A DNA stretch of 64,000 nt from Paracoccaceae bacterium (GTDB taxonomy: Bacteria; Pseudomonadota; Alphaproteobacteria; Rhodobacterales; Rhodobacteraceae): positions 38,362-102,361 of the forward strand of contig JAFMHK010000006.1 in NCBI GenBank assembly GCA_017854585.1, read 5' to 3'. How positions within the stretch are numbered: position 1 is the first letter of the stretch; each line of letters begins with the position of its first letter. Below the pieces are notes generated by a model. That model saw nothing but the letters and a program-made list of their open reading frames with translations. It did not search any database and was not told where the DNA came from. Below, piece by piece: positions 46,998-49,878 of this stretch. A program made the position numbers and the translations under genes.

Positions 46998-47792
46998 ATG
47001 ACCCTGCCAAAACGCCACTGGCGCGAGATGACCACGCGCGATTTTCACGATACCGCCGATTGGGTCGCCGTGTTGCCCCTTGCGGCGATCGAGCAGCACG
47101 GACCGCATTTGCCCGTTGGGGTTGATACGCTGATTGCCGAGGCGATGGTTTCCCGTGCCATCGCGGCGTTGCCTGACGAAAGTCCGCTGACGTTCTTGCC
47201 GGTACAGCAGGTCTGCAAGTCCAACGAACATATCGGATTTCCCGGCACGTTGACGCTTGATTGGGACGTCGCGGTGAAGGCGTGGCTTCAGATCGGGGCA
47301 AGCGTGGCGCGGGCGGGCGTGCGCAAGATGATCGTGATCACCAGCCACGGGGGAAACGTGCCGCCAATGGATATCGCCGCGCGGGAATTGCGCCAGACCC
47401 ACGGAATGGCGGTGGCGACGACGTCGTGGACCCGTCTGAGTGCTGATCGTGTCTATGACTATCCCGAAGGGCCGATGGTCGATATTCACGGGGGGCTGTC
47501 CGAGACATCGATGATGCTGGCGCTTTATCCGGATCTGGTTCGGATGGAACTGGCCGAGGACTTCGCCAGCGCACAGACGGCGTTGCGGCAGGGCTCGACC
47601 AGGTTGGGTTTTCACATGGCCGAGGCGAACATGGCTTGGCTGTCCCATGATCTGAACCCCAAGGGGACGGTGGGCGATGCATCCCGCGCGACCGCCGCCT
47701 TGGGCGCAGAGGACATCAAGCGCCAGATCGAGGGATTTGTTGCCCTTGCCGCCGATATGGCGCGGGTCAAGGTGCCGGGTGATCGGTTTTGA
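46998..47792 (+). CDS. Creatininase-family amidohydrolase
   Basis: A 264-residue metal-dependent hydrolase. The motifs EQHGPHLPVGVDT, SHGGN and the late GGLSETSMMLAL provide the two-metal site of the creatininase family. Members open cyclic amides: creatinine itself, or pyrrole- and formamide-type substrates in other pathways, so creatininase activity is not proven. No creatinase (creatine amidinohydrolase) is in the window. It is transcribed in the same direction as the preceding operon but separated by 80 bases. Confidence 0.86.
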   Translation: MTLPKRHWREMTTRDFHDTADWVAVLPLAAIEQHGPHLPVGVDTLIAEAMVSRAIAALPDESPLTFLPVQQVCKSNEHIGFPGTLTLDWDVAVKAWLQIGASVARAGVRKMIVITSHGGNVPPMDIAARELRQTHGMAVATTSWTRLSADRVYDYPEGPMVDIHGGLSETSMMLALYPDLVRMELAEDFASAQTALRQGSTRLGFHMAEANMAWLSHDLNPKGTVGDASRATAALGAEDIKRQIEGFVALAADMARVKVPGDRF

Positions 47793-47871: not shown

Positions 47872-49098
47872 TCAAAGGCGGTTGGTCGGAAAGTCGAATG
47901 CTTCCTGTTTGGATAGACCTTCAGCACATATGATCGCTGGAATTTGCGCCTTGAAGCGAAAGAACCCATGGGTGGCGTGTGGCCAGCTGAGCGTGTCCCA
48001 GCGTCGGCGAAGTTGCACAAATGCAATCTGATGCCCGCTGAGCGCTTTTTGCAGGCGCCGTAGTTGCGCGGCGGCGGGGCCGATGGGCGCATAGGCCGTC
48101 ACAATTTGTTCCAGACCTGCGTCCGCGGCCCAGGTAACGATATCGGCAATGTCGTGTGTGATCGGCCCCTGCGGACCCGGCAAGCGGCCCATGGCATCGG
48201 CGATGGCATCTTGGGTGAAGGCCGCCACCAGCGGCGAAACGGGCCGGGGTGACCGCTCCTGATCGCTGCGCAATGCGGCATATGCGACGATCCGGACATC
48301 AGGCCCGCAGAGCGATAGGTCAGGCGAGAGATCCTCCTCCGTCAGGAGAAGGCCGGTTCGAACGCCCTGTGCCGGATCGGGCAGTGGCGCCAATGGCCTG
48401 ATCACCGGGTGCGGCTGACCTGACAGGGCCGCGGCCCCGGTGTTGAGCCGCCATTCCGGGTTTTCCCGCCCCTCAGTGAACTTGGCGATGTTGGATGCGC
48501 GCGCGAGGTAATGTTTGCCCGGCGTCTGCAGACCGGCGACCCACCGCCAAGACAAGGTGTTCGACGCCGGATCGCCATCCAGCAGGTGACGCAGGAAGAA
48601 GTCGGCCCCCACCTCCCACGGCAAACGCAATGTGAAGATCCAGATCGAGGCGAACCACATCCGGGCGTGGTTGTGCAGATAGCCGGTGTTGACCAGTTCA
48701 TGAGCCCAACCGTTGAAGGCGGCGATATCGGTTTCCCCGGTTTCGGCACGCAAGACGGCGTCCGGATCGGTGGTTGCCAAGGCACGATCCCGGCCTTGGA
48801 TGTAATCGGCCCAGACCTGTGGCCGCAATTCCAGCCAGCCTTTCCAGTAGGTGCGCCAGAAGACTTCGGCCAGAAATTTTTCGGCTTGGGCCTGCGAATG
48901 CCGGTCCAGAACTGCCGCGATCACCTCGGCTTCGGTCACAATGCGGTGACGGATGTAGGGAGATAGTCGCGAGACATGGGGATGCCCTTGATCGGGCAAG
49001 TCATAATTGCGCCGGGCGGCGTAATCGCGCCCCGCATGAGCGACAAAGGCGGCAAGACGTGCAGACGCCGCGGCGCGGGTGGGAGGAGAACGATGCAT
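47872..49098 (-). CDS. Photolyase/cryptochrome-like FAD-binding protein with inverted domain order
   Basis: The 408-residue protein starts directly with a photolyase-type FAD-binding helical domain (about residues 10-240): LSPYIRHRIVTEAEV, AEVFWRTYWKGWLELRP, FNGWAHELVNTGYLHNHARMWFASIWIFTL and DPASNTLSWRWVAGLQTPGKHYLA. The usual N-terminal alpha/beta antenna domain is missing. Instead about 150 residues follow the FAD domain and look like an alpha/beta fold (LLLTEEDLSP, RIVAYAAL, LEQIVTAYAPIGPAAAQL, GFFRFKAQIP). DNA repair or light sensing is possible; neither is shown. The start is weakly supported (ATG 49098; GTG 49128 is an alternative). Confidence 0.82.
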   Translation of the reverse strand: MHRSPPTRAAASARLAAFVAHAGRDYAARRNYDLPDQGHPHVSRLSPYIRHRIVTEAEVIAAVLDRHSQAQAEKFLAEVFWRTYWKGWLELRPQVWADYIQGRDRALATTDPDAVLRAETGETDIAAFNGWAHELVNTGYLHNHARMWFASIWIFTLRLPWEVGADFFLRHLLDGDPASNTLSWRWVAGLQTPGKHYLARASNIAKFTEGRENPEWRLNTGAAALSGQPHPVIRPLAPLPDPAQGVRTGLLLTEEDLSPDLSLCGPDVRIVAYAALRSDQERSPRPVSPLVAAFTQDAIADAMGRLPGPQGPITHDIADIVTWAADAGLEQIVTAYAPIGPAAAQLRRLQKALSGHQIAFVQLRRRWDTLSWPHATHGFFRFKAQIPAIICAEGLSKQEAFDFPTNRL

Positions 49099-49239: not shown

Positions 49240-49878
49240 ATGAACGACCCGATCGAAACCTATATGAACCTTGTCCCCATGGTCGTCGAACAGACCAGCC
49301 GTGGCGAACGGGCCTATGACATTTTCTCGCGCCTGCTGAAGGAGCGGATCATTTTCGTGAACGGACCCATCCACGACGGGATGAGCCACCTTATCGTTGC
49401 GCAGTTGCTGCATCTGGAGTCGGAGAACCCGTCGAAGGAAATCAGCATGTATATCAACAGCCCCGGCGGCAGCGTCAGCGCCGGATTGTCGATCTACGAC
49501 ACGATGCAGTACATCAAGCCTGCGGTATCGACGTTGGTGTGCGGGCTTGCGGCCTCGATGGGGTCGGTCCTGTCGATGGCGGGAACGGCCGGTATGCGAT
49601 TCAGCCTGCCCAATTCCGAGTTCATGGTGCACCAGCCGTCCGCCGGATTTCAGGGAACCGCCGAGGACATCCTGATCAGCGCGCGCAACATCGAGCGGAA
49701 CCGTGAGCGGCTTTACCGTCTTTACGTGAAGCACACCGGTCAGGACTTCGACATCGTCCAGAAGGCGCTGGATCGCGACAAGTGGATGAACCCCGAAGAG
49801 GCCAAGGAATGGGGCCATATCGACCAGATCGTCGAAAACCGGGTGGCGGGCGATGATAAGAAAGACGACAAGAAATAG
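49240..49878 (+). CDS. clpP: ATP-dependent Clp protease proteolytic subunit
   Basis: ClpP forms the double-ring protease chamber that degrades proteins unfolded by ClpX or ClpA. The 212-residue protein has the catalytic Ser S106 ([10 protein letters not shown]) and His H131 (FMVHQPSAG), [12 protein letters not shown] at the oxyanion strand, and a Lys/Asp-rich tail (GDDKKDDKK). The N-terminal [23 protein letters not shown] is normal for alphaproteobacteria. clpX follows after 144 bases with a terminator hairpin in between. Confidence 0.97.

Follow-up and report, generated by a model that had tools for sequence, protein, structure and literature searches.

An inverted-topology photolyase of the NewPHL/Phr7 class with a probable antenna-domain homologue behind its FAD domain

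The gene at positions 47872-49098 (minus strand) of the window, by which we mean the whole 64,000-nucleotide stretch of DNA that was analysed, encodes a 408 amino acid protein (P0001) in which a photolyase FAD domain comes first and a short alpha/beta domain follows it. We consider it very probable that this gene belongs to a known class of photolyases with inverted topology (NewPHL; Phr7 in picocyanobacteria) and that a shortened homologue of the antenna domain lies behind the FAD domain. The domain order, the fold of the FAD domain, the kept active-site residues, the spread of the family and the clade that it forms are observed.

The neighbours of the P0001 gene are a creatininase-family gene (46998-47792, plus strand), which converges with it, and a divergent ClpP gene (49240-49878, plus strand). 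From stop to stop the frame measures 424 amino acids, so at most 16 further residues are available at the N-terminus and an N-terminal antenna domain cannot fit; an upstream start that would restore such a domain was looked for and ruled out on these grounds. The catalytic FAD-binding domain shared by photolyases occupies residues 6-215 (48454-49083, minus strand), which bears out the original prediction that the FAD domain comes first and starts near residue 10. The only Pfam domain of the protein is FAD_binding_7 (PF03441, residues 75-208, E 4.7e-17), residues 6-198 align with residues 202-396 of the E. coli photolyase 1dnp (E 4e-13), and the domain is also recognised by NCBIfam models. Its identity with canonical FAD domains is roughly 30%. 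In the second half of P0001, Pfam finds nothing beyond scattered weak matches, and a weak match to BLH_phosphatase is present in 5 of 81 family members (best E 3.5e-4).

AlphaFold2 with an 81-sequence alignment gave a model of P0001 with a mean pLDDT of 95.7 and a pTM of 0.92; a single-sequence model (pLDDT 35.5) was discarded. A fold search of the PDB, which covered residues 1-226 (the FAD half), superposed the model on solved photolyases with Z scores up to 16.8 (1iqr, Z 16.8, rmsd 2.5 over 211 residues; 1dnp, Z 14.7, rmsd 2.5 over 214 residues). Chain Ff of 7pub, a trypanosome mitoribosome assembly, ranked among the true photolyases in this search (Z 15.2). The FAD domain is followed by a proline-containing linker (residues 216-244; 48367-48453, minus strand). 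The 81-sequence model is free of helix and strand between residues 208 and 246, and the sole predicted element in the linker, at 222-226, comes from the poor single-sequence model. Behind the linker is a five-stranded alpha/beta domain (residues ~245-400; 47899-48366, minus strand), the 'Z-domain' of Phr7 and a probable homologue of the antenna domain, with a pLDDT mostly of 92-98 up to residue 390. Its strands (247-253, 269-276, 310-314, 331-335 and 359-363) alternate with helices, and we take this alternation across residues 247-392 to be the order known for photolyase antenna domains. The four alpha/beta segments quoted in the original prediction fall on it in order: strand 1, strand 2, strand 4 with the next helix (341-354), and the short helices 379-383 and 386-392. 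When PDB sequences were compared with the family profile the second half was left uncovered, the best stretches of the 18 matches ending by position 216 of 398.

Active-site residues were compared in 23 sampled members of the family, 10 genes from split pairs (described below) and 52 canonical photolyases, with E. coli numbering taken from the 1dnp alignment. E. coli E274, W277, N341, M345, W359, N378 and W382 correspond to E78, W81, N143, M147, W161, N180 and W184 of P0001, and all seven are kept in 23/23 sampled members. In the canonical rows Glu is found at the E78 position in 50 of 52 and the other six positions are kept in every row; in the split-pair genes Trp is present at the W184 position in 7 of 10 and the other six are kept in all ten. 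We assume E78, W81, N143 and M147 to be the positions that contact the dimer. The position of E. coli R342 (H144 in P0001) is His in all 23 members and all 10 split pairs, in contrast with Arg in 52/52 canonical photolyases. The usual electron chain has a third tryptophan, present in all 52 canonical rows, which here falls in a column (residue 109) where Trp is absent from the commonest residues of the family; the 1dnp alignment places it at residue 108, an Ala. As the third tryptophan is lost and R342 is replaced by His, the repair chemistry need not be identical to that of canonical enzymes. Three other residues, W131, W148 and W153, are Trp in 23/23 sampled members and in 1, 1 and 0 of the 10 split-pair genes, respectively, and they may form an alternative electron path.

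A homologue search found at least 586 stretches in genome contigs that encode relatives, and the best 80 of these were kept as loci. By record title these best 80 are mostly alphaproteobacterial, with some from gammaproteobacteria and actinobacteria, and all of them match across both domains. An upstream stop codon lies within 150 codons of the match in 74 of the 80 and the other six are long frames. An antenna HMM built from the 52 canonical photolyases matched the family's own frame at 0/80 kept loci; it matches 30/30 canonical control loci, which are themselves among its training rows. PF03441 is matched by 81/81 aligned members and PF00875, the antenna domain, by 0/81. Among further members, 30/30 matches extend to at least position 390 of the 398 in the model. 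The layout, with the FAD domain at 6-215 and the alpha/beta domain at ~245-400, is thus inverted as the original prediction proposed, and because it is common to the relatives it is more than chance.

Within the bacterial family of the window the inverted photolyase is present in 38 of 120 sampled genomes, and no DASH gene exceeds the cut-off in any of these 120. Across the bacterial class the family profile matches in 39 of 385 sampled genomes at E 1e-30; by row count these are 28 full-length members, 10 FAD-only genes and one canonical photolyase. The viral contigs scanned held no relative. One genome of the bacterial family (G006) has two full-length copies, on contigs C38 and C42. The genome of the window itself (G000) encodes two further antenna-domain proteins, on contigs C55 and C8 (frames of 512 and 544 amino acids), so the inverted enzyme is not the sole photolyase-like protein there. 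Six of the 80 loci (L019:1414-2928, L064:4170-5705, L056, L068, L078 and L082) have, no more than 3 kb from the inverted gene, a second photolyase gene in which the antenna domain takes its normal position. Two such neighbours were scanned; both have PF00875 followed by PF03441 and neither reaches any NCBIfam cut-off for photolyases or cryptochromes. The inverted and the nearby canonical-order genes may be a functional pair. In several small alphaproteobacterial genomes (L156-L166, most of 1.2-1.6 Mb) the FAD domain is well kept and the C-terminal domains are strongly diverged, so that of their motifs only the last one (GFF-FK) can be clearly recognised. Four Deinococcus plasmids (H9-H12) encode proteins that match the FAD half only (36-52% of the query, 36-42% identity), and these could represent additional split or FAD-only types.

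Eleven regions with FAD-only genes were fetched, and L176 was set aside because it turned out to be a canonical photolyase. In 10/10 of the remaining regions a second frame of ~130-150 amino acids lies directly after the FAD-only gene or overlaps it, an arrangement that PMC9426592 reports from picocyanobacteria as Phr4/Phr5. Alphaproteobacterial split pairs of this kind, a FAD-only gene and then an antenna-like gene, are L169-L175 and L177-L179, and also L120:968-1405. The two genes of L120 overlap at GTGA, where the first one stops and the second has its GTG start, and a C-x2-C...C cluster is found near the end of 3 of the 10 split-pair FAD genes (L169, L178 and L179). A tree of FAD domains was built from 85 rows (23 fused, 10 split-pair and 52 canonical, with Phr6, DASH and class II left out) and rooted at the midpoint, and the tool warned that long branches meet. 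In this tree the fused proteins (n=23; 100/99) and the split-pair genes (n=10; 95/91) stand apart from the 52 canonical photolyases (100/100). This branching confines the FAD-first order to one part of the 85-row tree.

The sequence comparisons make it highly likely that the second half of P0001 is a diverged antenna domain. In local mode, hhalign compared the C-terminal part with 30 antenna domains at P 0.0048 and a probability of 7%; with deeper alignments, single comparisons gave P 6.9e-4 (27%) against 30 photolyases and P 2.2e-4 (45%) against 52. The family's C-terminal domain scores 28.0 and 30.1 against antenna profiles, an antenna match that is weak taken alone, and the 38 decoys (18 families of flanking genes, each in forward and in reversed form, the reversed antenna and the reversed Phr5) score at most 20.8. 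A Phr5-like profile of ten sequences provides a bridge. It aligns over 132 columns with the family's C-terminal domain (P 2.6e-6, probability 89%) and over 132 columns with antenna domains (P 3.9e-7, probability 93%), and the highest decoy against it is its own reversal, at 25.4 (P 0.0017), followed by one at 20.2. Two of five single Phr5-like proteins tested are near-misses for the Pfam antenna model (E 0.013 and 0.1). Taken together, the similarity to the antenna through the split-pair bridge, and the clade of fused and split genes apart from canonical photolyases, mean that the structural guess of the original prediction is largely right.

Its claim to novelty is wrong, since the inverted layout is already known, having been reported in 2020 (NewPHL; Emmerich et al., NAR 48:12845) and in 2022; NewPHL, Phr6 and Phr7 are all in print (PMC9426592 and PMC13274461). 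In PMC9426592 (mBio 2022), Phr7 is described as a FAD domain followed by a C-terminal Z-domain, without Fe-S cysteines and closest to Phr4 and Phr6. The same text presents two picocyanobacterial kinds of photolyase whose domains come in reversed order, the split Phr4/Phr5 and the fused Phr6, places Fe-S cysteines in Phr4 and Phr6, and reports two class members as CPD photolyases. PMC13274461 uses the name NewPHL for the class, whose domain topology it gives as inverted, and its listed NewPHLs come from D. shibae, M. mesophilicum, Erythrobacter litoralis and Rhodospirillum centenum; the ones it names are all alphaproteobacterial. The D. shibae (A8LJA9) and M. mesophilicum (M7YZC8) proteins are tested members of the class.

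P0001 agrees with this class in its N-terminal FAD domain (residues 6-215), in the short C-terminal domain (245-400) that replaces an N-terminal antenna (PF00875 in 0/81 members), and in the mostly alphaproteobacterial membership seen in the best 80 of at least 586 loci. It has two cysteines, both within the C-terminal domain, which are too few for four Fe-S ligands; the total per member ranges from 0 to 7 (n=111), counting all cysteines and not aligned Fe-S positions. In the midpoint-rooted tree its family joins the ten Phr4-type genes (100/100) apart from the 52 canonical photolyases. No difference from NewPHL/Phr7 was found when the class was compared by its published description. With Phr4/Phr5 and Phr6 the protein shares a FAD domain that comes first and an antenna-like domain that comes second, and the alphaproteobacterial split pairs are its sister group in the FAD tree. 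It differs from Phr4 and Phr6 in having no cysteine in the FAD domain, where Fe-S cysteines are reported for them, and from the Phr4/Phr5-like pairs in being fused, their halves being separate genes. Class I CPD photolyases (E. coli, Thermus thermophilus) resemble it in the sequence and fold of the FAD domain and in most active-site positions; in contrast, their antenna domain precedes the FAD domain, they have Arg at the H144 position and their third tryptophan is present. DASH cryptochromes are reported to repair CPDs on single-stranded DNA, and single-strand repair is likewise reported for NewPHL relatives. They differ in having the canonical domain order, and P0001 scores 59.9 bits against a TIGR02765 cut-off of 317. 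For single-strand repair by DASH proteins, PMC9426592 cites Selby and Sancar (2006).

The class assignment would stand even if the C-terminal domain were an independently acquired Rossmann-like domain that shares the strand and helix order of the antenna by chance. Similar alpha/beta orders are common among proteins, the Pfam antenna model is matched by 0/81 members and the direct hhalign probability is only 45%. We regard this explanation as unlikely, as the antenna is the best profile match of the domain after Phr5 and lies above all 38 decoys, and Phr5 aligns to both the family domain and the antenna over 132 columns. Additionally, the direct and the bridged alignments share 83 columns, of which 44 agree exactly and 60 within four residues. 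At E 1e-5 the Phr5-like profile matched in 2 of 398 genomes. One match was its own gene and the other, at E 1e-6, the antenna domain at the N-terminus of a canonical photolyase; the other canonical antenna domains in these genomes thus failed to reach E 1e-5.

It is more doubtful still that the protein is a cryptochrome-like light sensor that kept the photolyase fold and lost DNA repair. The invariance of W131, W148 and W153 (23/23) and the loss of the usual third tryptophan do suggest a changed photochemistry; however, the presumed dimer-contact positions are kept in 23/23 members. The two class members reported as CPD photolyases in PMC9426592 also argue against this reading. Hardly any weight can be given to the idea that a canonical photolyase has been truncated or misannotated here, its antenna domain being lost or lying in another frame. 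The FAD domain is indeed class I-like by sequence, but the frame allows no more than 16 further residues upstream, the layout is identical in 80/80 kept loci (the best 80 of at least 586), the antenna HMM is silent in the family's frame at all 80, and the family forms its own clade.

For the preferred reading, an inverted-topology photolyase with a relocated antenna homologue, we propose the following mechanism. The N-terminal domain, judged by its sequence, would bind FAD. By analogy with known photolyases, light-excited reduced FAD would donate an electron to a cyclobutane pyrimidine dimer formed under UV and so split it, and published work on relatives makes a CPD in single-stranded DNA the most likely substrate. 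The C-terminal alpha/beta domain, most likely a shortened antenna homologue that follows the FAD domain where an ordinary antenna would precede it, probably closes the protein on its FAD side, and it need not carry an antenna pigment. We infer that its role is probably structural and not light-harvesting.

The halves found in the sister group are adjacent genes with the FAD gene first (10/10), and gene fission or fusion therefore explains the domain order. The swap of domains put forward in the original prediction holds as an inverted order, but the circular permutation that it invoked is not the simplest account, as the split pairs already have the FAD gene first. On balance, we slightly favour a history in which the Z-domain is a worn-down antenna and the FAD-first order arose once, through an adjacent gene pair that was fused in NewPHLs and is split in some alphaproteobacteria.

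P0001 is an ordinary member of the NewPHL/Phr7 class, and the gene itself adds one more to a described class; the antenna origin of the Z-domain alone may add something, and the evolutionary origin of this second domain merits attention. Should the C-terminal domain be a relocated antenna, these proteins would show how the domain order of a two-domain enzyme can change by way of split genes. Emmerich and colleagues are said to have proposed in 2020 that NewPHLs stand close to where the photolyase/cryptochrome family began. The relocated-antenna reading, if true, bears on that proposal, and with a single origin through a gene pair NewPHLs would have arisen secondarily by rearrangement instead of being remnants of an antenna-less ancestor.
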